A model generated the notes under the pieces. That model saw nothing but the letters and a program-made list of their open reading frames with translations, did not search any database and was not told the origin of the DNA. Positions 41,954-63,632 of a stretch of DNA of 64,000 nt are shown here, piece after piece. The stretch is from Desulforhabdus amnigena. GTDB lineage: Bacteria > Desulfobacterota > Syntrophobacteria > Syntrophobacterales > Syntrophobacteraceae. The stretch is taken from NCBI RefSeq assembly GCF_027925305.1, contig NZ_BSDR01000001.1, positions 1,515,001 to 1,579,000 on the forward strand, in the 5' to 3' direction. Numbering within the stretch: the first letter of the stretch is position 1; each line of letters begins with the position of its first letter. The position numbers and the translations under genes are program-made.

Positions 41954-42499
41954 TTATCTTCCCGTGAACGCCGCCACCCGGCTTGCCAGGTCCTCAACCA
42001 ACCGGTCGCGGTTGCCGGGGTTGACCTCGACCAGTACCACATCGGGCCGCTGTTTGACCTCGGCGATCAGGCCACCTCCCTTGAGGGCAACAGTGGCGAC
42101 GACGGTTTTAGACGAATCGAGAAGATGCCGCACCAAATCCACAAACCGCGCGGACAGGCATTCCATTTTGCCGATTTCGTCGATGAACACCAGCGGGGTA
42201 GCGATCTGGTCCAGCTTCTGGGCGTCCAGGAACTCCTCGAATCCATGGACATCGACCCCATACTTGCCCACTCGCGGCCCGCCGTGAATATCGACATGGG
42301 CCAGAAGGCCCGTCGCCCCGTTCAGCCCCACGAGACGAAAGCCCTTGCGTTGCCCCTGCAGACGGATCTCCTCGGTGTAAAAGCCGGCCGGCCGAAGCCC
42401 ACGCAATTCATGAGCCAGACTCTTGAGCAAAGTGGTTTTGCCACAACCCGGCATTCCGGTCATCAGGACATGTCGGCGCAGGTGTGAATCCCGGTTCAT
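41954..42499 (-). CDS. THEP1-type nucleoside triphosphatase
   Basis: A 181-residue P-loop NTPase of the THEP1 (NTPase_1) family found mainly in archaea, thermophiles and eukaryotes. Walker A is GMPGCGKTT near residues 15-23, followed by GFYTEEIR, typical of the family, and Walker B VFIDEIGKME. The family hydrolyses NTPs in vitro and its physiological role is unclear. It begins by overlapping the last 4 bases of the Clp1-type kinase gene (ATGA), so the two P-loop proteins are made together. Confidence 0.9.
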   Translation of the reverse strand: MNRDSHLRRHVLMTGMPGCGKTTLLKSLAHELRGLRPAGFYTEEIRLQGQRKGFRLVGLNGATGLLAHVDIHGGPRVGKYGVDVHGFEEFLDAQKLDQIATPLVFIDEIGKMECLSARFVDLVRHLLDSSKTVVATVALKGGGLIAEVKQRPDVVLVEVNPGNRDRLVEDLASRVAAFTGR

Positions 42500-43407
42500 T
42501 CTTCGACCTCCTTCCCGAAAAGAGGGGTTGTGACGCGCTGCAGTTCCGTCCCGGTGAGAGGATCGATGCGCAGCTTTCCCAGGCGCACAAGGGCCACCTG
42601 CTCAGGTGAGCGGATTGGGCTGACCAACTCCAGCCCGTTGGATAAAACCTGACTCACCACACCGGCCCCAACAAGAAATCCCTCCCGGTCGATCAGGCCG
42701 GCCAGGCAGCCCGGTTCCGCGTTCTTCAATCCGTAAACCGGTTTTTGCCCCTTGTAGATGCGAAGAGTCCCGGCCCCGTCGAAAAAGCGACGAAAGAGGA
42801 TTCGCCGCCGCTCGGCCCGTTCCTGGGGGGATCTCCGGCGCACTCCGACGGAAACCGGCAGAACATGGAGTTTCAACCGCGGATCATGCCGCCACGGCAG
42901 CAGGAGATGCTCAAGCTCCCGCCCCTGCTGCAGCGCGATAACCGCAGTCGGCGTCAGGAGCTCGACTTCCCATTCCTTGAGGGCGCCACCCCCGTATTCC
43001 TGCGCAACCAGTCCCGAAGTGTCGATAAATACCGGATCAGCCCCTTTGGCCCGCGCAAAATCGCGCAACCTGCACAATCCTGTAAGGACCTGAAGCATAT
43101 GTCCCCGCGGCGAACTGCTGCCGACGAAAAAGGACGCCCGTTCCACCACTTCTGAAGACTCCCCTGCCCTTGTGACCAGATTCAGCGTTCCGGGAATTCC
43201 CAAACTCGACTGGCCCAGATCCCCATCCAGCCAGGCCGCGTTTTGTCCCCGCCTGCAGGCCTTTTCAAGCAGCCAGCGGGCCAGGGTGCTTTTACCCGAG
43301 TCCGTGGCTCCCACGAGCATGACAGTACCGCTGAGCGCACTCCGGTCGAACCCCTGCCACTCTTCCGGAACGTCCAAATCAACCGGCAAAGGGGGCAATT
43401 TATCCAT
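42496..43407 (-). CDS. Clp1/Grc3-type polynucleotide 5'-kinase
   Basis: A 303-residue P-loop protein of the Clp1/Grc3/Nol9 type, which phosphorylates 5'-OH ends of RNA or DNA. Walker A is GATDSGKST (33-41), then the diagnostic segment DGDLGQSSLG (61-70) with the following IPGTLNLV, and FIDTSGLV as the next acidic motif. The C-terminal third has a small barrel-like domain (YGLKNAEPGCLAGLIDREGF). Such proteins are common in eukaryotes and archaea, sporadic in bacteria. AAAGGAG precedes the ATG. A fragment of a second such gene lies at 50010-50067. Confidence 0.88.
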   Translation of the reverse strand: MDKLPPLPVDLDVPEEWQGFDRSALSGTVMLVGATDSGKSTLARWLLEKACRRGQNAAWLDGDLGQSSLGIPGTLNLVTRAGESSEVVERASFFVGSSSPRGHMLQVLTGLCRLRDFARAKGADPVFIDTSGLVAQEYGGGALKEWEVELLTPTAVIALQQGRELEHLLLPWRHDPRLKLHVLPVSVGVRRRSPQERAERRRILFRRFFDGAGTLRIYKGQKPVYGLKNAEPGCLAGLIDREGFLVGAGVVSQVLSNGLELVSPIRSPEQVALVRLGKLRIDPLTGTELQRVTTPLFGKEVEE

Positions 43408-43496
43408 TTTTCAATCTCCTTTTTTCACCCGATTCAACCCCGGTTCAAAAGAGGAAAAAGACTGCGCCTTCATATCCGACAATGTCAACTTACGCA

Positions 43497-43533
43497 CTGC
43501 ACGAAAGGCATAGCGAAGAGACGATGCCGATGA
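43497..43533 (+). pseudogene. relic of the prim-pol gene 3' end
   Basis: These 37 bases match 51576-51612, the end of the intact prim-pol gene, with only two A/G differences. They read LHERHSEETMPM against LHERHGEETMPV. The upstream body of the gene is missing here, so this is a truncated second copy or a breakpoint of the island duplication. Confidence 0.75.
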
Positions 43534-43549
43534 CGAGAAAGCTGTATTT

Positions 43550-43772: not shown

Positions 43773-44534
43773 TCAGACATCTGAATAAGCCGCCATAATC
43801 TCGAACAGCATCTGACCGTATTCGTCTTTCATGGGGAGTTCCCGGTCTATTTTGATTCGACGTCTGGTGGCCAGTGTGGTTTTCCCCGTTCTCGGGTCGG
43901 TTCCCTCCTTCTTAAAACACTCCCAGTAAAGCCCTACACCACGCCGCTGCCAGCGTGGTAAATTGTTGAAGTTGATTCCATGCCGAAAAAGAAATTCGTT
44001 CTGATAAGAGGCCGACTCGCTTTTCAGCAACTGCGTTGCTTCTGCAACGCTTTTGCCCATCTTGCGTAAAGTCCAATAGCACCAGCTGTGTAGAGCATTG
44101 TTTGCCGCCTCGGCCTGACGCCAACGAAAATAATCGAGCACCAGCATGGCATCCGGCCCCATCCAGATACGGCTGTCGAAATGGGCCGCCTCACCCAGGG
44201 CAAGGCTAAATGCCGCGCTGACAATCCCTGCAGAAACGGACACAACCTTTTCCAGCCGGCGGTCAAAGAGGACCCAATCCCTGGGAAGGAGCAGGGAAAT
44301 CTCGTCACTCATGGTGTATGCATAAACACCCTGCAACTCTGTCAAAAGGGCGCTGGCAGCTGAAACCATGAGGTCTCGAAACTGCGGATCAAAAGGTTTG
44401 CTGAAACGGTCCGAGGTCTTACGGGAAAAGCCCCGCCCGTCCAGGCGAATGATCGGCCAACAGGCCGGCAGCATGCGCAAAGAACTGAAATATTCCAGAG
44501 AGCGCATCCGCTTTTCGAGATCCTTCAGTTCCAT
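43773..44534 (-). CDS. Thg1-like protein (3'-5' RNA polymerase, TLP type)
   Basis: A 253-residue Thg1 homologue. Thg1-like proteins add nucleotides in the 3'-to-5' direction, mostly to repair tRNA 5' ends. Metal-binding carboxylates sit in RLDGRGFS (Asp32) and YTMSDEISLLL (Asp77, Glu78), and the WRQAEAANNALHSW segment stands where eukaryotic Thg1 has HINNLYN. Absence of that motif places it with the bacterial/archaeal TLPs, which act template-dependently, rather than with tRNA-His guanylyltransferase. AAAGGAG precedes the ATG. It lies upstream of the Clp1-type kinase, on the same strand. Confidence 0.92.
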   Translation of the reverse strand: MELKDLEKRMRSLEYFSSLRMLPACWPIIRLDGRGFSRKTSDRFSKPFDPQFRDLMVSAASALLTELQGVYAYTMSDEISLLLPRDWVLFDRRLEKVVSVSAGIVSAAFSLALGEAAHFDSRIWMGPDAMLVLDYFRWRQAEAANNALHSWCYWTLRKMGKSVAEATQLLKSESASYQNEFLFRHGINFNNLPRWQRRGVGLYWECFKKEGTDPRTGKTTLATRRRIKIDRELPMKDEYGQMLFEIMAAYSDV

Positions 44535-44866
44535 CAGCAGTCTCCTTTATCATCTCGGTTATTATCTCGACGCGAGATCCGGGCCAAGTACCGAAAATTG
44601 TAAGTATGCGGCCATTTCCTTGCAGGAACGGCTTCCGGCCGTGACAGAAACGGCAACCGTACACCTTGTCGCGGCAGGATGCCACTCTTACAGAAACGCA
44701 CGGGTAAACGGGTGCGTAATTGCGATCATGAAAACCAAGCCGCTTACCCGCACCCCCTATCAGCCGCACTCTTTTCTCCAGGGGAAACTGGCCAAACGGC
44801 GCCCGGCGCCGTTTGGTGGAGATCGCCGGGTCATCGGTGAGACTGCCCGGGGTGCAATCATGGTTT
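44535..44866. other. spacer with perfect hairpin, no gene
   Basis: About 330 bases between the Thg1-like gene and the PCMT relic. It includes the hairpin at 44792-44816. The long frame 44419-44916 on the minus strand mixes unrelated stretches and runs into the duplicated segment, so I do not call it. From 44849 the sequence becomes the direct repeat. Confidence 0.45.
44792..44816. repeat. perfect 11-bp hairpin
   Basis: CCAAACGGCGC-CCG-GCGCCGTTTGG, an 11-bp perfect stem with a 3-base loop. It lies upstream of the Thg1-like gene and downstream of the PCMT relic. No T-run follows on either side. Role unknown; it could stabilise or end the leftward transcript. Confidence 0.6.
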
Positions 44867-45582
44867 TCAAAATCGGCGTAACGAAGCTTGAGCGTACTTT
44901 CCGCGCAGGGAAACATACAAAACCTGGCAAATCACTTCTCTGGCTGTCCCCCCGGGTTCTTTCTTCACAAGTACCAGGTTCTGAACACCCCCCTCCTTGT
45001 GACCGGCGCGATGAGCCTTCCTCCCATTTTGAGCTGGTCCAGCAAGGGAGGAGGAATTTCGAGGCAGGCCGCCGTCATGCAAATGCGGTCATAGGGGGCT
45101 TTTTCCTGGTACCCAAGCCCGCCGTCCCCGTGTACCAGGACAATGTCACTGTAGCCCGTATTCTTTAGATTATTTTCTGCAAAGGCCAGGGTTAATGGAT
45201 CGATCTCAATGGAAACGACCAGGCCCTTCTCCCCGACGATTTCCCGGGCCAGAGCCGTACCCTAGCCCGACCCGAGCCCGACTTCGAGAAACCTGTGTCC
45301 TCTGTCGAGTCCCAGGGGTTCATAAAAAAGGGGATAACTGTGTGGGCAGGAAATGGTGGCCTCTTCCCCGGGCAGTGGGAGAGGGACTTCCTCATAGGCG
45401 TAGTCCTTATAGAAAAAGGGAATAAACTCTTCCCTGGGAACCTTCAGCATCGCTGCTTTGATGCGCTCTGAGCACAAATAGCCTTTCCGGGTGAGCCAGA
45501 CCACTTTCTGCTCCTTTTCCCTGCGAAATTCTTCCCTGCTTTTAACCGGCTCTTTGGGCGGAGGAATGATCCAGCCCGGCAT
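44867..45582 (-). pseudogene. decayed protein-L-isoaspartate methyltransferase
   Basis: This is a broken copy of the intact PCMT gene at 51658-52365. Near 45263 the SAM-motif tyrosine (SGYG) has become a stop (SG*G, TAC to TAG). Near 44997 two extra bases shift the frame (CTTGTGACC against CTTAACC). The end also reads through to two extra residues (SLRRF). The beginning and motif PLPGEEATISCPHSYP are intact. It follows DUF72 in the ancestral operon order. Confidence 0.9.
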
Positions 45583-45621
45583 ATATTTTCCCTTTGCGAT
45601 GGTCGATTGTTGTCCAAATCC

Positions 45622-46347
45622 TCAGAAGGACTCCCCCTCACGGTGCAAACAGGCGATGAATCTCAGCGCATCCTCTTTCATCGTCATATTGTTGAACATG
45701 ACGTACCCTTCCCTTCCTTCGCACAGGGAGAGAAGCCTTTGAAGGTCCATGTCGCCGTAGCGGTAGCGATAACCACCGATACCGTGCAGACGATAGTAAA
45801 CAGCTCCTTCACTCAGGCACTTGTCCTTGAAAGGGTCGACACAGTGAATGAGATCGAGACTGCCGCAAAGCTCCTGGACCAGCTCAGGCGGCCAGGGGCC
45901 CCGGGGCTCCCAGGCGATTCGGAAAGCCCCTCGCACCAGGGAAGAGAAAAACGCCGAAAAATTGCGGATATTTTCCTCCGTTGGAGTGAAACCGGCCGGG
46001 CACTGAAAGACTACCACAGAGGCCTGCAAGACCTCGGCAATCTCCCTGGTGACCCGCCAGGCATCCTGAACCTCCCGCGAAGGACGGAAGCCTCCCAAGC
46101 GCTTCGAAACCTCCGGCGAAACGGGATGGGCAAGGCGTCGGTAGGTGGGGCTGGAGGGCTGGTGGGTGATGAGCTGCCAGGCCTTGAGGGTGAAACAAAA
46201 ACCTGGCGGAGCCTCCCGCCGCCAGCGCAGGGCGGTCTCTATACGGGGCGGCTGATAAAAGGTCTTCTGGATCTCCACCGTCGGGAAGTGCTTGAAATAG
46301 AGTGCCCGCCTTCCGGCAAACCCACAGCAACCGACCTTAAGGTTCAT
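45622..46347 (-). CDS. DUF72 domain-containing protein
   Basis: The 241-residue product is a full DUF72 protein: start MNLKVGCCGFAGRRALYFKH, then FCFTLKAWQLITHQPSSPTY, the region with TRPWP-type aromatics as EPRGPWPPELVQEL, HCVDPF, and the C-terminal YYRLHGIGGYRYRYGDMDL and YVMFNNMTMKEDAL. DUF72 proteins have a TIM-barrel fold and unknown chemistry. I chose the ATG at 46347 (AGGAG 9 bases upstream). The longer frame reading into an amzA relic and beyond is not real. In copy B the same gene is reduced by a 630-base in-frame deletion. Confidence 0.93.
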   Translation of the reverse strand: MNLKVGCCGFAGRRALYFKHFPTVEIQKTFYQPPRIETALRWRREAPPGFCFTLKAWQLITHQPSSPTYRRLAHPVSPEVSKRLGGFRPSREVQDAWRVTREIAEVLQASVVVFQCPAGFTPTEENIRNFSAFFSSLVRGAFRIAWEPRGPWPPELVQELCGSLDLIHCVDPFKDKCLSEGAVYYRLHGIGGYRYRYGDMDLQRLLSLCEGREGYVMFNNMTMKEDALRFIACLHREGESF

Positions 46348-46388
46348 AAAGCAAGCTCCTGCAATTTTTGCAAAAGCCGGGTCCCTTG
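46337..46388 (-). pseudogene. relic of the archaemetzincin 3' end
   Basis: The minus-strand frame gives GPGFCKNCRSLLYEP-stop, matching the end of the intact archaemetzincin (GPGFCKNCRSLFYKP-stop) at 52490-53017. Its stop overlaps the start of DUF72. The match ends at 46388, next to the transposase relic, so the rest of the gene was lost. Confidence 0.88.
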
Positions 46389-46392
46389 AAGA

Positions 46393-46581
46393 GATCTTCC
46401 GCTTCACAAGGCCCTGGCCATGCTGAAACGCGAAAAGAAAATAGGCGCAGAGCTCATAGAAAAGCTGATGAACCGGCGACACGACGGGTTCAGTACCCAT
46501 GCCTGCAACCGCATCGCCAGAGACGACCTGGACGGGCAAGCAGGCTCTAACACAATATATCATGCGAAACGCTTTCTCTAG
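46393..46581 (+). pseudogene. IS91-type transposase C-terminal relic
   Basis: The plus-strand frame reads HKALAMLKREKKIGAELIEK, LMNRRHDGFSTHACNRIARD and DLDGQAGSNTIYHAKRFL-stop. This fits the C-terminal part of IS91/IS801-like transposases (LL+E-K-I-x-x-x-L-I-x-x-L-L-x-W-R-H-S-G-F-x-V-H-x-x-x-R-I). Only about 62 codons remain. It starts at the exact break in copy A of the duplicated cassette, so it probably marks the rearrangement point. Confidence 0.65.
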
Positions 46582-47034
46582 ACATTAAATCACCTCTATC
46601 CAGGATACCGGCAAGGGTCCTCTATCGGTCCGGCATAACCCATGGGAAGAATAAGAAAAACTTCCAAATCTTCACTCCTGATCATCATTACTGACAGCAG
46701 GTACTATCCGAAAACTCTCAGAAAACGATTTCTTATCACCTGTTTACTTTTTATAGTTTGAAAGTTATATAATAATCCAATACTTCTAGCGATTATTCAT
46801 CAGAGGTGGTGTCGGAATGTACGAAGGAATTTTCCTGGTAAAATTGGAACAAACCTAAAGGGTAATATGGATGGATCTATGAATCATCCGAATTCCCAAG
46901 ACATTGACGGAGTAGTAAAAAGTAGCAGCACGGTAAAATCGCAATCCGGCATTAGTTAGAAAATAGGTGAATCGGCAAAATCGTTCACCGATGTGCCGTT
47001 TTCATCGTTTGAGAGTGCCGCCCCGGAATGACAA

Positions 47035-47105
47035 TTTATATGAAAAAGGCTCATGGATCTTCGTGCCTCAATGTGCAGTAGTTTATATGAAAAAAAGGCT
47101 CATGG
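47035..47105 (+). repeat. two direct repeats of a 22-bp unit
   Basis: TTTATATGAAAAAGGCTCAT (47035 on) and TTTATATGAAAAAAAGGCTC (47082 on) share the same start and the end GGCTCATGG, differing by two A. The spacer is about 25 bases. The meaning is unknown. Confidence 0.5.
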
Positions 47106-47198
47106 TTCATAGCTCATGCTGACATCGCTTTTCAAGAGCGTTTCCCGCTTTCCTCCTTATTGCCTTGCATCCCTTTGCCCATTTTTCATTTTTTGTTG

Positions 47199-47219
47199 TG
47201 ACCCACCGGGTCATGGGGG
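47199..47219. repeat. inverted copy of the 15069 palindrome
   Basis: TGACCCACCGGGTCATGGGGG is the reverse complement of the 21-mer at 15069-15089 with a single difference. Both are intergenic and contain TGACCC/GGGTCA arms. Confidence 0.5.
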
Positions 47220-47482
47220 TTAAGTTCTTCCCCCACCGCTTACCTGCCCTATCTTTCATTCTGTCACTTTGTTTCCAGACTTGACGAGCAAGACATGTCT
47301 TTAGACGTTTAGCTCATTGTAAATCAAGCCAGCGCTCGTTTTCACCAAGTTCATAAACCTCCACATATTTCCATATTTGCTATCTGTTTCCGGCAACTCG
47401 CTTGACGTCTAAAAACCGTGAGAGATGCATGGGAAAATGCCATTGATGTTTGGACATAGATAAACTGAAAGGAATCTTTGAA

Positions 47483-47926
47483 ATGAACGAAAACGAAAGA
47501 TGTGGATCTTACTCATGGATCCAGACAGAAAACCTAATTGTGGAGAGTTATATTCTCGATGGTTTCGCCCGTGATTCAGAAGATTGTTCTTCTAAAGGGT
47601 GTTCCGGAGGGGATTGTTCCGAGCATACTGAGGACAGTTCGGGGCATTTGCACGCGCACGAACATTATAAGAACAGCTATTACAACGACAATCGGCAATC
47701 TCTTTTTGAAAAATTTCGCCTCGCGATCGACGAGCGGCACCAAAAATATGCTGCGGGTTACCAGTGGTTCTGCAGGAAATGCGGTCATCCGTGTGCCAGT
47801 ACAGAAATATGGATCCCGTGCAAGGGTAAGTTTGTAACGGCTAAGGTAATATGCCACCTCAGTTGCTTTAATCACTGGAGACTGGAAATTTATCCCGCTA
47901 TCCCGGAAATAGGAAAGATGAACTGA
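47483..47926 (+). CDS. Cys-rich hypothetical protein
   Basis: I do not recognise this 147-residue protein. It has two unusual Cys clusters: CSSKGCSGGDC near residues 37-47, followed by a His-rich stretch (HTEDSSGHLHAHEHYKNSYY), and CRKCGHPC near residue 104 with CHLSC near residue 129, likely a zinc ribbon. The start at 47483 (AAAGGA 9 bases upstream) is preferred to a TTG at 47450. Its stop overlaps the start of the next gene (TGATG). The Cys/His content suggests metal binding. Confidence 0.7.
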   Translation: MNENERCGSYSWIQTENLIVESYILDGFARDSEDCSSKGCSGGDCSEHTEDSSGHLHAHEHYKNSYYNDNRQSLFEKFRLAIDERHQKYAAGYQWFCRKCGHPCASTEIWIPCKGKFVTAKVICHLSCFNHWRLEIYPAIPEIGKMN

Positions 47927-48144
47927 TGAAATACTTGCTTCATTTCAAATGTGACGTTTGTGGTTGGAAGTGGTCCGTCTATTGTGAATCCATGATTTCG
48001 GCTCTAAATTCCATCGCCGATGAAGGATGTCCCAAACAATGCGGAAATTTTGGAAAAATCTATCTGATGGGTCATGAGAAAACGGAGGATAATACCCTGT
48101 TGGAAATGATCGGTTGTGGAATTGGGGCTGTATGTAAATTTTAG
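47926..48144 (+). CDS. small Cys-rich hypothetical protein
   Basis: A 72-residue product coupled to the previous gene by a TGATG overlap. It has CDVCGWKWSVYCES (two closely set Cys pairs), then CPKQCGN and a C-terminal CGIGAVC. Zinc-ribbon- or rubredoxin-like spacing is visible, but the family is unknown. Because the pair shares overlap and Cys style, they may form a complex. Confidence 0.65.
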   Translation: MKYLLHFKCDVCGWKWSVYCESMISALNSIADEGCPKQCGNFGKIYLMGHEKTEDNTLLEMIGCGIGAVCKF

Positions 48145-48573
48145 CCCAAGCGACGTTACACGGTGGCGAAAGTTCTCACCTCATTGAACGATTCAATTCC
48201 CCCTCGATGGGGGTGCCGGCAAGTACACATCCCCCTGAATCCCCCTTCAAAGGGGGACTTCAAAATCTTCCAGACAGGATGACGACTTCTGCCGCGGTGT
48301 ACCAATATTTCAACCTGAATTACGGATTGTCAGATTTGAGTTGGGTGTACCTTCTGAAGTCATGTGAAATAAGTACTGCCCGACTTATTCTCCTTTTGCT
48401 ATTGTACCGGCAGCAGCGCAAAAGGGTTGAAAGATACCATCAAAATACGTAACTTACTTTTATTTATGGAAATAATATCTCCTGACACGCTATTTTTATG
48501 AAGATAGATCTCCCGAGTCTTTAGGTTTGAAATGCCCAAATAAAATATTTTACACTCTTCATAGGGGTGAGAT
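48145..48573. other. intergenic region with GGGGG-hairpin
   Basis: About 430 bases with no supported gene. A CCCCCTGAATCCCCCTTCAAAGGGGG-type dispersed hairpin occurs around 48230-48258, cited by its core CCCCCTTCAAAGGGGG. An 81-codon plus-strand frame crosses it and is not convincing. Confidence 0.4.
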
Positions 48574-49923
48574 ATGATCATTAGCTCTGATCTTCTTGAG
48601 AATACGTGTAAAAATACAATCGAAACCATACTTCTATGTTTGGAACACGCTACAAAAGGAACCATCTATCACATTGGTCCCATGCCGGAACTCCAGGCAG
48701 TGCGGATCGCATCAGGGATTCGTGAAGAAAGAAGAGGGCAAATTAAGTGGGGCTTGCCCGGAGTTTCCGATTACAATGATCCCGGTAAGAGTTGGGAAGA
48801 ATACCGGGACAAGCCTGGTCGTCCTTTGGAGGCGATGGGGTGGTGCGTAGAAAAGCAAAAAAGTTGGACTGCGGACAACCCGAGTGAAAACAGCCGAAGT
48901 GTTCGAAAACAGGTCTCTGGAGAATTGGAAGATACCTATCATATGGAACCTGTCCTGGTCAGTAAAAAGGATCTTTATGGAAATCGGCTCCATATGCTGG
49001 ATTATCCTCTGGATTGGCAAGGGAATCCTATTTGGCAAGATACCGATTACGTCGTTGTAGCAGTTATCAAAATCCATTTCCTCCCCCTCACCATTACGCG
49101 AGGTGATCGTTCTACTAAAATCATTAAAAAGCTTTCTCGAACTCTAGGTACGCAAATGCTATCGCTCCAATTGCGGGAAAGCCTATTGAAAGGTCAAAAG
49201 GAACTGGCCCGCCAAAGGCTTCAAAGCTGCAATATCCTGGCACATGAATTGCGCAATACCCTGATGAAGCTGAGCTTCGCATTTGGGGCCATTAATGCGG
49301 AAATTAGCTTTCTCAGGGAACAGTGGGAAATTGAGCTGAGAAAGGTTTTCCCGGAACTGGAAGACAAACGGGTGATTCTTGAACGACTGAATCATTTGAT
49401 TCGTTTGCGAATTCCCAGGATGAACGGATCAAAAGAATTGATACGTTTGGCTAATGAGTTGCTGACGGAGGAGAAAGAATTGAGCGACATTTCCCTCATA
49501 CCTCGTCAGGCAGAGCAATGGCTCAATGAGAAGATAAAGCCGAAGTGGGATCGTTTATTATTGGAGAGCCAGGCATGGGACGCGGATAAGGAAGAGATCC
49601 AGCAGCTTTTGGAGCGTCTGAGAAAGGCCTTTTGGATTGGAACAGATAAAGATCTTGTCCGAAAGATGAATCATCTTCCTGAAGATCTGAGAATCAAATG
49701 GCCTGAACTTGCCTATACGCGATTTTGTGCAGAAAATCTCTCTCTACTGGATGAAATTCTAGAACTACTCCAGCATCCTGCGCTCAATATCCCTCATAAA
49801 CAGCACACCCAAAAGATTTTCACTTGTCTGAAGGCCCTCATAAAGATTATTCCCGAAATCGAGAGACGAACCAACACGATCATTTCCTGTCTGAAAAACG
49901 GGATTTCATATGAAGATTTGTAA
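48574..49923 (+). CDS. protein with histidine-kinase-like H-box, no ATPase domain
   Basis: I cannot assign this 449-residue protein. Residues about 1-190 form an alpha/beta region (CLEHATKGTIYHIGPM, WGLPGVSDYNDPGKSWEEY, YVVVAVIKIHFLP). At about residues 218-240 it has CNILAHELRNTLMKLSFAFG, which closely follows the HisKA phospho-acceptor pattern (H-E-L-R-x-x-L). The remaining 200 residues are alpha-helical and highly charged (LERLNHLIRLRIPRMNGSKE, LLERLRKAFWIGTDKDLVRK). No N, G1 or G2 box of a HATPase domain is present. The unusual composition and A+T-rich codon use set it apart from the island genes. Confidence 0.7.
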   Translation: MIISSDLLENTCKNTIETILLCLEHATKGTIYHIGPMPELQAVRIASGIREERRGQIKWGLPGVSDYNDPGKSWEEYRDKPGRPLEAMGWCVEKQKSWTADNPSENSRSVRKQVSGELEDTYHMEPVLVSKKDLYGNRLHMLDYPLDWQGNPIWQDTDYVVVAVIKIHFLPLTITRGDRSTKIIKKLSRTLGTQMLSLQLRESLLKGQKELARQRLQSCNILAHELRNTLMKLSFAFGAINAEISFLREQWEIELRKVFPELEDKRVILERLNHLIRLRIPRMNGSKELIRLANELLTEEKELSDISLIPRQAEQWLNEKIKPKWDRLLLESQAWDADKEEIQQLLERLRKAFWIGTDKDLVRKMNHLPEDLRIKWPELAYTRFCAENLSLLDEILELLQHPALNIPHKQHTQKIFTCLKALIKIIPEIERRTNTIISCLKNGISYEDL

Positions 49924-50153
49924 CTACTGAGTTCGAGTTCAGCTCGGAGCATTACGAATTCGTACAGAATCGACATTCCGGGGCTGAAAGGCCGGCTTTT
50001 TGACTCCTGCTCCACCGCGTCTGAAGAATCCCATGCCCGTCCGACCAGGTTCAGAGTACCGGGAATTCATCTCATGGCTGAAGTTTCTCACACCATTTGA
50101 GACGGCAGTAACATGCATCTATAACCGCTGTCGAGATATCACCGGAATATGCT
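49924..50153. other. spacer with Clp1-type kinase relic
   Basis: About 230 bases between the H-box protein and the HhH protein. The only recognisable content is the kinase relic at 50010-50067. Confidence 0.5.
50010..50067 (-). pseudogene. relic of a second Clp1-type kinase gene
   Basis: The minus-strand frame reads IPGTLNLVGRAWDSSDAVEQ. The intact kinase (42496-43407) reads IPGTLNLVTRAGESSEVVER at the matching place. At the base level most of a 58-base block at 43142-43199 agrees, including CCGGGAATTC and TCTGAAGA. It is only a fragment, evidence of a decayed or partial duplication. Confidence 0.72.
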
Positions 50154-50753
50154 ATGGAAAATGACCTTGCGAAACTCAAGCTGAGCCCGCTCTATTCCGA
50201 AGAGCTGGGTATCGTGCTTTCAGAAAATGATGACAAGGAGTATTTCAAGTGGTTTCTCGCCAGCCTGCTCTTTGGCGGCCGCATCTCGGAGACCATTGCC
50301 AAACATACCTACCAGGCCTTTGCCAGACACGATCTGCTCACGCCGGAGAAGATCCTGAAGGCTGGTTGGGATTATCTTGTCTATCCTATCATGCGCGAAG
50401 GCGGCTACGTGCGTTACGATGAACGGAAATCGACTCAGATTCTGCGCGACTGCGAAAAACTGCTGTGTGAATACAACGGCAGCCTGAAACGACTGCATGA
50501 GGCGGCGGCCGATGCCGGCGATCTTGAAGAGCAATTGCTCGATTTTTATGGCGTCGGCCCTGTGACGGTAAATATCTTTCTGCGCGAACTGAGACCGTTC
50601 TGGCACAAGGCCAACCCGGCTCCGCTCCCCATCGTGCGTGAACTGGCCGCTGCGCTTGGCATCGACCTGGATCGCTACAGCCCCAAGACGCTCACCTTCT
50701 GCCGTATCGAAGCCGGGCTGATACGACATCGTAGAAAAGAACGGCAGGGATGA
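50154..50753 (+). CDS. HhH-GPD-like (endonuclease III-type) small protein
   Basis: A 199-residue all-helical protein with one helix-hairpin-helix (LLDFYGVGPVTVNIFLRELR, cited by FYGVGPVTVNIFL) and flanking helices of the HhH-GPD type, e.g. LLFGGRISETIAKHTYQAF. Catalytic Lys/Asp positions of the glycosylases are not certain, and there is no iron-sulfur Cys4 loop. It may be a DNA- or RNA-end-handling protein rather than a glycosylase. It stands 69 bases upstream of the prim-pol gene, on the same strand. Confidence 0.78.
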   Translation: MENDLAKLKLSPLYSEELGIVLSENDDKEYFKWFLASLLFGGRISETIAKHTYQAFARHDLLTPEKILKAGWDYLVYPIMREGGYVRYDERKSTQILRDCEKLLCEYNGSLKRLHEAAADAGDLEEQLLDFYGVGPVTVNIFLRELRPFWHKANPAPLPIVRELAAALGIDLDRYSPKTLTFCRIEAGLIRHRRKERQG

Positions 50754-50822
50754 TCCGGGATGATGAAAAGATGATCTCCATATTTTTTGGAACCATCAAC
50801 CGGAGTATAGGAGCACTCGATC

Positions 50823-51626
50823 ATGCCATCATCGATTGAAGAGGCCGCGCTTGAATACCTGAAACGGCACTGGTCGGTCATCCCCATCAGATCTCATGAC
50901 AAGCGTCCTGCTATCCGCTGGCAGGAATATCAGCATCGCCATGCCACCAAAGAAGAGGTGAACGAGTGGTTTTCACGCTGGCCGGCGAGCAATGTGGGGA
51001 TCGTGACCGGTGCAATCTCGGGTCTGGTCGTACTCGATATCGATCCCAAACACGGCGGAGACGCCGGCCTGGCCGAGCTGATCCGGCATCATGGCCCTTT
51101 GCCGCAAAGCGTGGAAGCAATCACCGGCGGTGGCGGTCGCCACATCTATTTCGCCCATCCCGGCGGCATGGTGCGCAACAGAGTGGGTTTGGCGACTGGG
51201 ATCGATCTGCGCGGCGACGGCGGCTGCGTGGTGGCCCCCCCTTCGCTGCACCCCTCCGGTAGGGTCTACAGCTGGCGGAAAGGGCATGCCCCCCATCAGC
51301 ATGCATTGGCGCCGATGCCTGGCTGGCTTTTGCAGGAGGCGGCCGGTGAATACGAACGGCGCGGCCACCCCCTGGAATATTGGCGCAATCTGCTCAGGGA
51401 AGGTGTGCCGGAGGGGGAACGCAACAATACTATCGCCTCACTGGCGGGCCACCTGCTCTGGCATGGTGTGGACCCTCACGTGGTACAGGAGTTGTTGTTG
51501 TGCTGGAACCGGATACGGTGTCGCCCGCCGCTCTCCGATGGTGAGGTGGTGCGCACCGTCGAGAGTATCACGCACCTGCACGAAAGGCATGGCGAAGAGA
51601 CGATGCCGGTGAATGAAAAGATGTGA
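50823..51626 (+). CDS. bifunctional primase/polymerase (prim-pol) with PriCT-like tail
   Basis: A 267-residue archaeo-eukaryotic-type primase. Catalytic DxD is in VVLDIDPKHGG (Asp72, Asp74), the sGGRH motif is TGGGGRHIYF (His107), and GIDLRGDGGCVVAPPS completes the prim-pol core. About residues 190-260 resemble a PriCT module (GERNNTIASLAGHLLWHGVD, CWNRIRCRPPLSDGEVVRTV). No helicase domain follows, unlike plasmid or phage primases. AGGAG lies upstream. The last 37 bases recur at 43497-43533. Confidence 0.88.
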   Translation: MPSSIEEAALEYLKRHWSVIPIRSHDKRPAIRWQEYQHRHATKEEVNEWFSRWPASNVGIVTGAISGLVVLDIDPKHGGDAGLAELIRHHGPLPQSVEAITGGGGRHIYFAHPGGMVRNRVGLATGIDLRGDGGCVVAPPSLHPSGRVYSWRKGHAPHQHALAPMPGWLLQEAAGEYERRGHPLEYWRNLLREGVPEGERNNTIASLAGHLLWHGVDPHVVQELLLCWNRIRCRPPLSDGEVVRTVESITHLHERHGEETMPVNEKM

Positions 51627-51657
51627 CGGAGTCGGGGTGCAATCATGGTTTTCAAAA

Positions 51658-52365
51658 TCAGCGTAACGAAGCTTGAGCGTACTTTCCGCGCAGGGAAACA
51701 TACAAAACCTGGCAAATCACTTCTCTGGCTGTCCCCCCGGGTTCTTTCTTCACAAGTACCAGGTTCTGAACACCTCCCTCCTTAACCGGCGCGATGAGCC
51801 TTCCTCCCATTTTGAGCTGGTCCAGCAAGGGAGGAGGAATTTCGAGGCAGGCCGCCGTCATGCAAATGCGGTCATAGGGGGCTTTTTCCTGGTACCCAAG
51901 CCCGCCGTCCCCGTGTACCAGGACAATGTCACTGTAGCCCGTATTCTTTAGATTATTTTCTGCAAAGGCCAGGGTTAATGAATCGATCTCAATGGAAACG
52001 ACCAGGCCCTTCTCCCCGACGATTTCCCGGGCCAGAGCCGTACCGTAGCCCGACCCAAGCCCGACTTCGAGAAACCTGTGTCCTCTGTCGAGTCCCAGGG
52101 GTTCATAAAAAAGGGGATAACTGTGTGGGCAGGAAATGGTGGCCTCTTCCCCGGGCAGTGGGAGAGGGACTTCCTCATAGGCGTAGTCTTTATAGAAAAA
52201 GGGAATGAAGTCTTCCCTGGGAACCTTCAGCATCGCTGCTTTGATGCGCTCTGAGCGCAAATAGCCTTTCCGGGTGAGCCAGACCACTTTCTGCTCCCTT
52301 TCCCTGCGGAATTCTTCCCTGCTTTTAACCGGCTCTTTGGGCGGAGGAATGATCCAGCCCGGCAT
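51658..52365 (-). CDS. pcm: protein-L-isoaspartate O-methyltransferase
   Basis: PCMT methylates isoaspartyl residues in damaged proteins so they can return to aspartate. The 235-residue product has PLPGEEATISCPHSYPLFYE (substrate/active-site region), the SAM motif FLEVGLGSGYGTALAREIVG and DIVLVHGDGGLGYQEKAPYD. A short Lys/Arg-rich N-extension precedes the core. The start at 52365 has AAAGGGAAAA upstream. This is the intact partner of the pseudogene at 44867-45582. Confidence 0.94.
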   Translation of the reverse strand: MPGWIIPPPKEPVKSREEFRREREQKVVWLTRKGYLRSERIKAAMLKVPREDFIPFFYKDYAYEEVPLPLPGEEATISCPHSYPLFYEPLGLDRGHRFLEVGLGSGYGTALAREIVGEKGLVVSIEIDSLTLAFAENNLKNTGYSDIVLVHGDGGLGYQEKAPYDRICMTAACLEIPPPLLDQLKMGGRLIAPVKEGGVQNLVLVKKEPGGTAREVICQVLYVSLRGKYAQASLR

Positions 52366-52404
52366 ATATTTTCCCTTTGCGATGGTTGGTTGTTGTTCAA
52401 GTCC

Positions 52405-52500
52405 TCAGAAGAACTTCCCCTCACGGTGCAGGCAGGCGATGAATCTCAGCGCATCCCCCCGCCTCCCGGTAAACCCGCAGCAACCGACCTTAAGGTTTAT
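52405..52500 (-). pseudogene. DUF72 remnant after 630-bp in-frame deletion
   Basis: The frame reads INLKVGCCGFTGRRG, then DALRFIACLHREGKFF-stop. This is the start and end of the DUF72 protein joined directly, with the intact gene (241 codons) reduced to 31 without a frame break. The ATG has become ATA. The stop and reading phase remain. It is presumably not translated. Confidence 0.9.
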
Positions 52501-53017
52501 AAAACAAGCTCCTGCAATTTTTGCAAAAGCCAGGTCCCTTGCGGTCCGTATCGATCAGGCTGTTGGAGAAATGCATCACGCAGGTTGGATCGGGACAATG
52601 CCCCAGACCTGCCAGGTGGCCGATTTCATGCACCGCCTCGGTCAGCACCCGGTGGCAAAAGACACCCCGGGTTAAGGGGCGCCCGGGGTATTCCATATGC
52701 AGCCGTTTCAGGGAAATAACGGCACAGCGGTGCAGAACATCGGCCTGGCCGAAAACGAAGTTGAGCCCTGCTTCGAACAGGTCGGCACCGATGATTGCCA
52801 GGCGAAAATCCCCTGAGGGCCCCAGTTCGCGCAGTCGCTGCAGAACCAGGGAAGCGCGGTACTGGCCGCGGGAAGGGACGAATGCGTTCTTTGGAAGACC
52901 GATCTGTTCTCCCAGTCGAACGGTGCAGGGGAAAAACCCGGCAAGCCGGCTCTCCAGCAACTCGACGACCGGGTGTTCAACATCCGCCGTGAAATAGAGC
53001 CAAATGGTTCCTTGCAT
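52490..53017 (-). CDS. amzA: archaemetzincin (zinc metallopeptidase)
   Basis: A 175-residue archaemetzincin. The full family signature is present: HEIGHLAGLGHCPDPTCVM (HExxHxxGxxHC-x4-C-x-M) followed at the right spacing by GFCKNC, giving the extra zinc-binding Cys set. Its peptidase substrates are unknown. The family is typical of archaea and higher eukaryotes, patchy in bacteria. I chose the ATG at 53017; the frame continues upstream and overlaps the rSAM gene. Its stop overlaps the old DUF72 start, and a tail relic of it occurs in copy A. Confidence 0.93.
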   Translation of the reverse strand: MQGTIWLYFTADVEHPVVELLESRLAGFFPCTVRLGEQIGLPKNAFVPSRGQYRASLVLQRLRELGPSGDFRLAIIGADLFEAGLNFVFGQADVLHRCAVISLKRLHMEYPGRPLTRGVFCHRVLTEAVHEIGHLAGLGHCPDPTCVMHFSNSLIDTDRKGPGFCKNCRSLFYKP

Positions 53018-53033
53018 GGTTGCGAAAATCGAC

Positions 53034-54131
53034 CTAGACCAGAAGGTGGACATTTCCCAGGCGCACTCTGCTCAGTCCCTCCTCCCGGGCTGCATCCAGG
53101 CATCTTTCGGCCAGTTCCCGTGAGGTCACGGGCAGGTCAGCCATGTGGAATTGGGGGTGAAAGGCCAGCAGGCTGTAAGGGATGTTTCTGTCGATCGAGG
53201 CGATGCAGCGCGCCAGGAGACGCACTTCCTCCGCGTCGATGTAGCCTGGGACAAGCAGCGTGTTTGCGATCAACAGGGGTGGCTCCGGCCGCTCCCGAAC
53301 CAGCTTGCCCGCACGGGCGAAATTTTCCAGGGTCCTTCGGTTGCTCACTCCGGTCAGAGCGATGTGCAGGTTCTCATCCCAGGCCTTGAGGTCGAACTTG
53401 ATGTTGCCGCCTGATTCGAGCGCCACCTCCACCATCTTGTCGAGAACGGCCGGATGCATGGAACCGTTGGTTTCCCAGCAGATGCGCAGAATTTTTCCTT
53501 TGGCCTTTTCCCGCGCGAGCCTGGCGGCATTGAGGGAAAAAGGGGCTTGTGGCGTCGGGTCGCCGCCGAAAAAGCAGATGCATGACGTGCAGTCATCGAC
53601 CGCGGCGGCCAGTTCTTCAACGGTTCGGGTTTGGGGTCTTGTGGTCAGTTCCATGAAGGACCAGTTCTGACAAAAGAGGCAGTTGAAGGAGCAGGCGTGA
53701 AAAAAGACCGCCAGGTTTTTGTAGCCGCGTTCCGGTCCCTGACGGTGGGCATACCTGGGATAGCCGGCCCCGGTACCGCCGGGACAGACCCAGTCCCCCA
53801 CGCAATTGGTCGGCAAAGGGTCGTGATACCAGGAGAGCTTTCCTCGCTCGGCGGTGACGTCCTTGATTTTCCCTTTTTCGTTTCTGCGCAGTCCACAATA
53901 GCCCACCCCACCCTCGGGGATACGGCATTCGTGCACGCAGAGTCGGCAGGGAATCCCCTCCGGCGCTCTGGGCTCGGTTTCCGGAAGGCCGAAGGAAGCC
54001 CTGCTTCTGCGGTGGATCTTTAGGGCCAGCGCAAGGGCCTTGTCGGGTTTGTCCAGAATACAGCTTCGGCAGACACCGAGCTCCCTCGCGATCTCCTTTG
54101 AACTCTTTTCACAGATCTCGCACCACCCCAC
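53034..54131 (-). CDS. radical SAM protein (PflA-like), island copy
   Basis: A 365-residue radical SAM enzyme with an N-terminal Cys-rich region (CEICEK, CRSC, CRLCVHEC, GYCGL), the cluster motif CSFNCLFCQNW (CxxxCxxC), CFFGGDPTPQAPFS and the C-terminal GNIKFDLKAWDENLH and LLIANTLLVPGYIDAEEV. It is close to pyruvate-formate-lyase-activase-like proteins of unknown target; a paralogue lies at 62496-63632. The start is GTG with GGGAGG upstream. It overlaps none of amzA's chosen frame but is only 16 bases away, so they form one operon. Confidence 0.9.
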   Translation of the reverse strand: MGWCEICEKSSKEIARELGVCRSCILDKPDKALALALKIHRRSRASFGLPETEPRAPEGIPCRLCVHECRIPEGGVGYCGLRRNEKGKIKDVTAERGKLSWYHDPLPTNCVGDWVCPGGTGAGYPRYAHRQGPERGYKNLAVFFHACSFNCLFCQNWSFMELTTRPQTRTVEELAAAVDDCTSCICFFGGDPTPQAPFSLNAARLAREKAKGKILRICWETNGSMHPAVLDKMVEVALESGGNIKFDLKAWDENLHIALTGVSNRRTLENFARAGKLVRERPEPPLLIANTLLVPGYIDAEEVRLLARCIASIDRNIPYSLLAFHPQFHMADLPVTSRELAERCLDAAREEGLSRVRLGNVHLLV

Positions 54132-61240: not shown

Positions 61241-62506
61241 ATGCAAAACTGGCTCAAGGTATACGGCAATCGGCGAGTGCTCAGCCTGCTGGGCCTCGGC
61301 TTCTCTTCTGGACTCCCACTCGCCCTCACGGCATCCACGCTACAGGCCTGGATGGCGACCGAAAAAGTGGACCTTGCCCTCATCGGCATTTTTTCCCTGG
61401 TGGGGTTGCCGTATACCTTGAAGGTCCTCTGGGCACCCGTCATGGACCGCTTCACTCCCCCTTTCCTCGGCCGTCGCCGGGGCTGGATCGTTATCACACA
61501 AGTCCTCCTTGCCCTGGCTATCCTTGCCCTCAGCCTTGCTTCGCCGGCTTCCATGCCCTGGCTTGTGGCTTTTCTGGCTGTCATGATCGCCTTTTTCAGC
61601 TCGAGCCAGGACATCGTCGTGGATGCGTACCGTGCAGATGTCCTCCAGGAACGTGAATTGGGCGCAGGGGCCGCGACAACGGTTGTCGGATACCGCATCG
61701 CCCTCATCGTCTCGGGAGCCGTCGCCATGATCCTTTCCGATCATCTTCCCTGGCGGGCGGTGTATGGTCTCATGGCTGTCCTCATGCTCCTGAACGTCGC
61801 CTTTACCCTGGCGGCTCCGGAACCCGCCGAAAGGGTCGTACCACCCAAAACCATCAAAGAAGCCGTGTGGGGGCCGCTGGCTTCCTATTTTCGCCGCTCC
61901 GGCGCCGTGGAAATGCTCTGCTTCATCATGCTCTATAAACTGGGAGACGCCGTTGCGGGAGCCATGACCACCCCGTTCCTCCTGGATCTCGGATTCACTC
62001 GAACGGATGTGGGCACGGTAAACAAAGCCTTCGGGTTGATCAGCACGATCCTCGGAACGCTTGCGGGTGGAAGCATCATTGCAAAGATGGGAATCAACCG
62101 ATCCCTCTGGCTTTTTGCCTTTCTCCAGGCTTTTTCGAACCTGGCCTTCACGGGACTGGCCTTGGTGGGAAAAAGCTATGCCGTGATGGTAACCGCGATC
62201 GGCCTTGAGAACATTTGCGGCGGCATGGGCACGGCGGCATTCGTGGCTTTCATGATGAGCCTTTGCGACAAGCGGTTCACTGCCACGCAGTATGCCCTCC
62301 TCACCAGCTTTATGGCTGTCACCCGCGTTTTGGCTGGAGTCCCCACGGGATTCATGGTGAATTCCCTGGGGTGGGCCATGTTCTATTCCGTGAGTGTGTT
62401 GGGAGCGCTTCCCGGTATTCTGCTTCTTCCCCGCTTCGCTCCGTGGAATGGAGGAGAGGGAAGAGGCTATGGAGCAAAAGAGGTGGAACTGGTGATCAGT
62501 GAATGA
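61241..62506 (+). CDS. AmpG-like MFS permease
   Basis: A 421-residue 12-TM permease of the AmpG muropeptide-uptake group. It has GFSSGLPLALTASTLQAWMA, the loop VMDRFTPPFLGRRRGWIVIT (R-R-R-G-W), SSSQDIVVDAYRADVL and the second-half GLENICGGMGTAAFVAFMMS. It imports N-acetylglucosaminyl-anhydromuropeptides in known cases. It overlaps the convergent radical SAM gene by 11 bases at its end. Confidence 0.9.
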   Translation: MQNWLKVYGNRRVLSLLGLGFSSGLPLALTASTLQAWMATEKVDLALIGIFSLVGLPYTLKVLWAPVMDRFTPPFLGRRRGWIVITQVLLALAILALSLASPASMPWLVAFLAVMIAFFSSSQDIVVDAYRADVLQERELGAGAATTVVGYRIALIVSGAVAMILSDHLPWRAVYGLMAVLMLLNVAFTLAAPEPAERVVPPKTIKEAVWGPLASYFRRSGAVEMLCFIMLYKLGDAVAGAMTTPFLLDLGFTRTDVGTVNKAFGLISTILGTLAGGSIIAKMGINRSLWLFAFLQAFSNLAFTGLALVGKSYAVMVTAIGLENICGGMGTAAFVAFMMSLCDKRFTATQYALLTSFMAVTRVLAGVPTGFMVNSLGWAMFYSVSVLGALPGILLLPRFAPWNGGEGRGYGAKEVELVISE

Positions 62507-63632
62507 AATGACGATTTCCCAGCCGCACCCGCCGCAAACCGGCTTCTTTGGCCACCTTCAGGCAGGCTGCGGCCTGATCCCGCGAAGTCGTGGGAAAATC
62601 TTCCAAGCAAAACTGAGGGGTAAAAGCAAGCAAGGCATAGGGAATATCCGGATTGAGACTCGCGATGAAAGAAGCGATTTTGTAGACCTCTTCTTCTCCC
62701 ACATAACCCGGCACCAGGAGCGTGCTCGCCACCAAAAGCGGCGGTTCCGGCCGCAAAGGAACCCACTCGGCCAGGCAAGCAAAATTTTCCAGCACCTGCC
62801 GGTTGTCGCATCCGCACAGGGCCTCGTGGATATGAGGGTCCCACGCTTTTAAATCCGCTTTCACACACCCTCCGGATTCCAGGGAAAGACGCGCCATGGG
62901 TTTGAGCCAGGCAGGGTTCATGCTCAGATTGGTTTCCCAACAGATGCGCAGAATCCGATCCGGATGCCTTCGCCGCATCTCCTCCGAAACACGCAGCGCA
63001 TAGGGAAGCTGAGGTGTGGGGTCTCCACCGAAGAAGCAGACGCAACTGGTTTCATCGTTGACTTCATCGACCAGGGAATCGACGGAACGCCAGGTTCCCT
63101 TTGAGAGGCCGCTTCTCTTGAAAGACCAGTTCTGGCAGTAGAGGCAGTTGAAGTTACACCCTTCAAAAAACACGGCCAGATTATAGAATCCAACCTCCGT
63201 TCCACAATCATTGGCATACACTGGGTAGCCGGCTCCTGTTCCCCCAGGGCACACCCAGTCGGCCACACAGTTGGTGGGAAGAGGATCGTAGTAGCAGGAG
63301 ACACGCGCCCTGGAACGTCCGTCCAGGCGCAGGCTGTTTTTATCCCCCGTACGAATGCCGCAGTACCCCGAATCCTTCTCCCCCATGAGGCACTCGTGCG
63401 GACAGAGGCGGCAGGATATCCCCCGGAGATTTCGTGGCGGGTTCCTGGGAAGGTCGAATACCTGCCTCGAGCGTGAATGGATGGCGGCGATCCGCTCACG
63501 GCTCTCTTCCCACCGGTTCTTTATACAATCGGGACAGACCTCAAGGCTGTGCCCGATCCCGGAAAGCCGTGCTCCGCAAATGAGGCAAACAAATGTTCTA
63601 TTCCTGGACCTACCGCATCCCTTGATGAGCAT
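62496..63632 (-). CDS. radical SAM protein (PflA-like), second copy
   Basis: A 378-residue paralogue of the island radical SAM protein at 53034-54131. It has the same N-terminal Cys clusters (CLICGA, CPDC, CRLCPHEC, GYCGI), CNFNCLYCQNW, CFFGGDPTPQLPYA and the tail LVASTLLVPGYVGEEEV, with the same order and nearly the same length. It lies 11 bases downstream of hypE on the same strand, so it could be co-transcribed with hydrogenase maturation genes. Function unknown; a glycyl-radical activase is the nearest family relation. Confidence 0.9.
   Translation of the reverse strand: MLIKGCGRSRNRTFVCLICGARLSGIGHSLEVCPDCIKNRWEESRERIAAIHSRSRQVFDLPRNPPRNLRGISCRLCPHECLMGEKDSGYCGIRTGDKNSLRLDGRSRARVSCYYDPLPTNCVADWVCPGGTGAGYPVYANDCGTEVGFYNLAVFFEGCNFNCLYCQNWSFKRSGLSKGTWRSVDSLVDEVNDETSCVCFFGGDPTPQLPYALRVSEEMRRRHPDRILRICWETNLSMNPAWLKPMARLSLESGGCVKADLKAWDPHIHEALCGCDNRQVLENFACLAEWVPLRPEPPLLVASTLLVPGYVGEEEVYKIASFIASLNPDIPYALLAFTPQFCLEDFPTTSRDQAAACLKVAKEAGLRRVRLGNRHFIH

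Follow-up and report, generated by a model that had tools for sequence, protein, structure and literature searches.

How does an operon come to lie on one chromosome as two copies, each of which keeps a gene that the other has lost? The question is posed by a 64,000-nt stretch of the Desulforhabdus amnigena genome (the window, to which all positions refer), in which an operon segment comprising PCMT, DUF72 and the end of the archaemetzincin gene amzA occurs twice on the minus strand, as copy A (44849-46388) and copy B (51634-52541). The repeat, the condition of each of its genes and the position of one ancestral flank beside A and the other beside B can be read directly from the DNA. To explain them we propose, with a probability of roughly 60%, that a direct duplication of a segment of one ancestral locus, ordered CLP1-Thg1-(dinB remnant)-PCMT-DUF72-amzA-rSAM (rSAM, radical SAM), was followed by reciprocal loss.

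A different gene is broken in each copy

An earlier note on this DNA had described A and B as direct repeats, and their limits held up in the base-by-base alignment that it had suggested: aligned globally, the two span 908 columns, with 27 substitutions, one 2-nt gap (an insertion in A) and one 630-nt gap (an in-frame deletion in B). Copy A comprises the start of a dinB C-terminal remnant, a PCMT pseudogene, an intact DUF72 gene and the last 15 amzA codons. When the whole genome was searched (one contig of 4,536,740 bases, with a completeness of 99.4% and a contamination estimate of 2.57%), only A and B were matched, with no third copy. At 1.5 kb, 97% identity and E = 0, the match is far above chance expectation, and its longest identical stretch is 196 bp.

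Two strain variants of a single locus might have been merged into one contig during assembly, and both the overall difference between the copies (~3%) and the contamination estimate would be in keeping with this. The genome is nevertheless a single contig of 4.54 Mb, 99.4% complete, in which each lesion-bearing copy is bordered by unique sequence and a 5.2-kb spacer keeps the two apart, and the copies are too divergent for a false expansion of one identical sequence. An artefact of this kind seems to us most improbable.

DUF72 is intact in A (45622-46347, minus strand), where it encodes 241 aa matching PF01904 (E = 2.4e-32). AGGAG lies 9 nt upstream of its ATG, which overlaps the end of amzA, and the protein keeps 74 of 75 conserved columns (those conserved in at least 90% of ~20 homologues). 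In B (52405-52500, minus strand), 31 in-frame codons remain: the 630-nt in-frame deletion falls at 52457/52458, both ends of the gene survive in frame and ATA replaces the ATG. PCMT is broken in A (44875-45582, minus strand), where TAC has become TAG at codon 107 (45264-45262), within the methyltransferase motif GSGYG, and 2 nt have been added at ~45000-45001. Neither lesion is present in seven outgroup PCMTs (L034, L035, L036, L037, L046, L054 and L074). In B (51658-52365, minus strand), PCMT encodes an intact protein of 235 aa (PF01135, E = 1.2e-55) that is 86-87% identical to those of L034 and L035.

The remaining operon genes lie largely outside the repeat. Its limits exclude the whole radical SAM gene (53034-54131, minus strand; PF04055), which forms the right ancestral flank, and all amzA codons except the last 15. 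An intact amzA adjoins B (52490-53053, minus strand; 187 aa; PF07998, E = 2.6e-23; NF033823 above cut-off), and in A the gene is a 46-nt, 15-codon 3' tail at the right repeat limit (46343-46388, minus strand). Separated in this way from amzA and the radical SAM gene, the DUF72 of A would now require its own promoter. These results confirm what the earlier note had said of the state of each gene in A and in B. Its idea of duplication followed by complementary decay is well supported for DUF72 and PCMT, each lost from one copy and intact in the other on the same chromosome, but no sign of duplication was seen for amzA and the radical SAM gene, which stand outside the repeat but for those 15 codons. 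Exactly one working copy of every gene remains within the operon but not genome-wide, because another PCMT (41% identical) and another DUF72 family gene exist elsewhere in the genome.

The outer flanks of A and B were once joined

The nearest outside relative of the operon, L034, is a 5-kb contig from a Desulfuromonadales metagenome-assembled genome (MAG) that carries rSAM-amzA-PCMT-dinB-Thg1-CLP1, all in one direction. Protein identities to it are 84% for the radical SAM protein, 76% for amzA, 86% for PCMT, 77% for Thg1 and 79% for CLP1, and the amzA tail of A matches its positions 1576-1621 at 85%. In the window, Thg1 (tRNAHis guanylyltransferase-like; 43773-44534, minus strand; PF04446) and the CLP1_P kinase-like gene (42496-43407, minus strand; PF16575) lie to the left of A, Thg1 being absent beside B, and amzA and the radical SAM gene lie to the right of B. 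Given that the order is unbroken in L034, where CLP1 adjoins Thg1, what now borders A on the left and B on the right once belonged to a single ancestral locus, of which these flanks are the opposite ends. The arrangement supports a history in which a duplicated segment, with 5.2 kb of other sequence enclosed between its copies, came to divide that locus.

The remains of dinB help to date the duplication. L034 has a complete dinB behind PCMT and no fusion, whereas the window has only the C-terminal end of dinB, fused to the end of PCMT. In A the remnant (44735-44907, minus strand) aligns to the end of L034 dinB and runs on to Thg1; in B the same fusion (51634-51692, minus strand) is truncated at 51634. 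As A and B share this fusion, dinB was deleted before the duplication took place.

Near 180 in L034, TGA stands where 34 other radical SAM matches have cysteine (CVHECRIP in the window), as either a selenocysteine codon or a MAG error. The window also holds a second radical SAM gene (62502-63587) that is 53% identical to the one at 53034-54131; as most relatives have a single radical SAM gene at that identity, the copy in the operon looks acquired.

The gene order in other genomes

The genes are best described as a loosely shared neighbourhood, with the exact order amzA-DUF72-PCMT seen, among the genomes searched, in this one only. A survey of 395 genomes of the phylum found a close DUF72 relative in 47 and an amzA relative in 137; in genomes with both, the nearest pair is ~8.4 kb apart (G432), so none of them has an adjacent pair. 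No DUF72 gene was found by profile search in any of 62 loci around PCMT relatives. DUF72 lies next or close to a CLP1 gene in 6 of the 20 DUF72 regions fetched, and relatives of o199, a gene of an unnamed family in the spacer, adjoin PCMT or sit between amzA and PCMT in five genomes (L047, L052, L059, L074 and L075). The single ancestral rSAM-amzA-DUF72-PCMT operon put forward in the earlier note is upheld in part: L034 joins both flanks in an undivided locus, but it lacks DUF72, and no relative with amzA-DUF72-PCMT was found. DUF72 had no match among the solved structures searched, and we found no literature on archaemetzincin together with DUF72.

Uneven divergence between the copies

The 27 substitutions are not spread evenly. 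The PCMT part differs at 12/734 sites (1.6%), and the part made up of the DUF72 end, the intergenic sequence and amzA at 15/176 (8.5%; Fisher p = 2.3e-5); 12 substitutions cluster within one 100-bp stretch, a degree of clustering matched in 5 of 5000 random placements. Read against the outgroups, the TAG and the additional 2 nt are derived in A, and the changes opposite A positions 45406, 45274 and 45198 are derived in B, as are the amzA-tail sites 46345, 46351 and 46379, which are ancestral in A when compared with L034 and window sequences. Because the outgroups place lesions and substitutions on both branches alike, we count this pattern for duplication and reciprocal loss.

The unevenness suggests either that the copies exchanged sequence by gene conversion while PCMT-A was still unbroken, or that recombination inside PCMT joined on a copy derived from a related strain; divergence there would also be lowered if both PCMT copies had been under strong selection until recently. 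On our preferred account, a duplication within this genome would have generated both copies, after which PCMT would have been lost in A through the nonsense change and the frameshift, and DUF72 in B through the 630-nt in-frame deletion and the loss of its start codon. Before the lesions of A arose, gene conversion had probably made the PCMT parts alike.

Several observations weigh against this account. The amzA-PCMT interval of L034 holds neither DUF72 nor a remnant of it, so the ancestral position of DUF72 is given by the two remnants in B alone. A simple duplication without gene conversion would not predict the uneven divergence, and a plain tandem duplication would leave the repeat ends abutting, yet 5.2 kb separates A from B. 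Either the lineage of the window acquired DUF72, or the L034 lineage lost it and kept no trace. That L034 shares the DUF72 deletion of B was ruled out, as its amzA-PCMT interval has no such remnant.

The spacer and the origin of the arrangement

What lies between the copies bears on how they arose. The spacer (46389-51633) is host-like in G+C from 46.4 to 50.0 kb (43-46%, against ~53-62% in the operon parts) and has relatives there in the host family. Beside copy B it contains a stand-alone PrimPol gene (50823-51626, plus strand; 267 aa; PF09250), the sole replication-type gene recognised in it; no integrase, mobilisation gene or plasmid backbone was recognised. The remaining spacer proteins gave nothing significant against Pfam, NCBIfam or PHROGs, so that a phage or plasmid identity of the spacer is unsupported. 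The block in its entirety sits within a 25.3-kb island (31785-57112) that is absent from one same-genus genome (G001), in which matches to 31784 and 57113 sit ~190 bp apart; a search of that genome found no DUF72 and no PCMT of the block's type.

A second, shorter repeat flanks the block. The 3' end of PrimPol (51569-51624, plus strand) is matched by 54 bp between Thg1 and CLP1 (43491-43545, plus strand) at ~89% identity, in these two places only (E = 1.9e-10). Comparison with a 272-aa homologue shows the PrimPol gene to be full length, so the left copy is the remnant of a PrimPol end; it lies close to the Thg1 stop, within ~300 bp that have no counterpart in L034. A tandem duplication without further deletions was ruled out, as it leaves the spacer and this repeat unexplained.

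A related-strain molecule carrying the spacer and PCMT-DUF72-amzA' could instead have recombined once, in a Campbell-type insertion, with a resident locus that was already without DUF72. The order flank-repeat-spacer-repeat-flank would result, and DUF72 would have been restored by the event rather than left over from the decay of a second copy. The topology suits the single-crossover insertion of a circle, the contrast of 8.5% divergence at the DUF72/amzA ends with 1.6% in PCMT suits a recombination or conversion tract, and both the PrimPol gene and the location of the block in an island missing from a same-genus genome would fit. However, the spacer, most of which has host-like G+C and host-family sequence, yielded no recognisable integrase, mobilisation gene or plasmid backbone; the 54-bp repeat near Thg1 is unexplained unless the incoming homology was longer; and the dinB deletion shared by A and B requires a very close relative as donor. 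We consider this origin unlikely.

The junctions raise another alternative, in which insertion of the spacer came first and template switching later copied a short operon patch to its far side, with no larger unit involved. The boundaries 46388/46389 and 51633/51634 show no obvious transposon ends and a similarity of only a few nucleotides, in line with such a stepwise origin, but the PrimPol-end remnant between Thg1 and CLP1 is left unaccounted for, and we judge it very unlikely. A transposon target-site duplication was ruled out as the source of A and B, the repeat being much too long.

Under segmental duplication, the 54-bp repeat points to a unit wider than A and B. In this extension, o199 and PrimPol would once have stood between CLP1 and Thg1, and everything from there to the end of amzA (o199-PrimPol-Thg1-dinB remnant-PCMT-DUF72-amzA end) would have been duplicated; A would then have lost o199 and PrimPol except for the last 54 bp, and B would have lost Thg1. 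Drawn from one short repeat, this version has in our estimation slightly less than an even chance. If it is correct, reciprocal loss extends beyond DUF72 and PCMT, and one event both split the operon and relocated several genes relative to each other.

Other observations concern the spacer itself. The best plasmid relative of PrimPol (59%) adjoins phosphoribosyltransferase, groEL and hsp20 genes, and no relative was found in viral contigs. In o199 (50154-50753, plus strand), a GVGPVTVN helix-hairpin-helix-like motif was seen by eye; profile searches matched it to no family, and the solved structures searched gave no match. A stretch of 95 bp (46953-47047) is 98% identical to one other site (G000:C1:1308762-1308856), and 47082-47223 belongs to a dispersed repeat family of ~140 bp with ~40 genome copies, mostly 79-87% identical. 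A 449-aa protein (48574-49923) belongs to none of the known families; for its first part, several DNA-level relatives (~69%) exist both in this genome and in many relatives.

Recombination between the copies and known routes of gene-order change

The 196-bp identical run is of sufficient length for recombination, and the outcome of a loop-out would depend on where the crossover fell. Within 44849-44999, PCMT would be kept whole and DUF72 lost; within 45002-45603, DUF72 would be lost and PCMT would receive one or both lesions; and within the 84-nt right part, DUF72 would be kept and PCMT lost. The earlier expectation that deletion between the repeats removes DUF72 is thus right for most crossovers, those in the PCMT part, and wrong for the right part. 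Every loop-out between A and B would also remove the spacer, including o199 and PrimPol. With each copy holding a gene missing from the other, a complete single locus cannot be regained through any one deletion between the repeats; given the other PCMT and the other DUF72 family gene in the genome, the cost of a loop-out may be small.

Known processes resemble this history in part. As in tandem duplication-random loss (TDRL), a process familiar chiefly from mitochondrial gene order, each duplicated gene is down to one working copy and these are distributed across A and B; unlike in TDRL, decay is incomplete, both sets of remnants are readable and the copies are separated by 5.2 kb of other DNA. 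The flank-repeat-spacer-repeat-flank topology is that of Campbell single-crossover integration (insertion-duplication), whereas a stand-alone PrimPol is the only plasmid or phage function recognised here. In Selection during Niche Adaptation (SNAP), the two copies of a duplication come to have different genes inactivated, which blocks loss of the duplication and leaves gene order rearranged; the SNAP authors reported signs of the first two steps and called for further tests (PMC7055797). With a different gene broken in each of A and B and an altered gene order, the present locus is in keeping with duplication-and-loss models of gene-order change, in particular the late stage of SNAP (PMC7055797). 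SNAP involves tens to hundreds of genes, including essential ones; the unit established at this locus measures ~1.5 kb (possibly 9 kb), none of its genes is known to be essential, and dosage selection is not in evidence. It is rather doubtful, in our view, that this is an operon-scale natural case at the fixed stage of SNAP, with only one working copy left, in one place or the other, of each of o199, PrimPol, Thg1, PCMT and DUF72, loop-out always costing a gene and the operon permanently split.

The locus clearly illustrates, in a natural genome, a known route of gene-order change, and is not a new kind of system. Models of bacterial gene order predict duplications trapped by different losses in each copy, and it is seldom that a stage in between is observed. 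At this locus the remnants in A and in B are still legible, so that the order of events can be resolved with a few related genomes.

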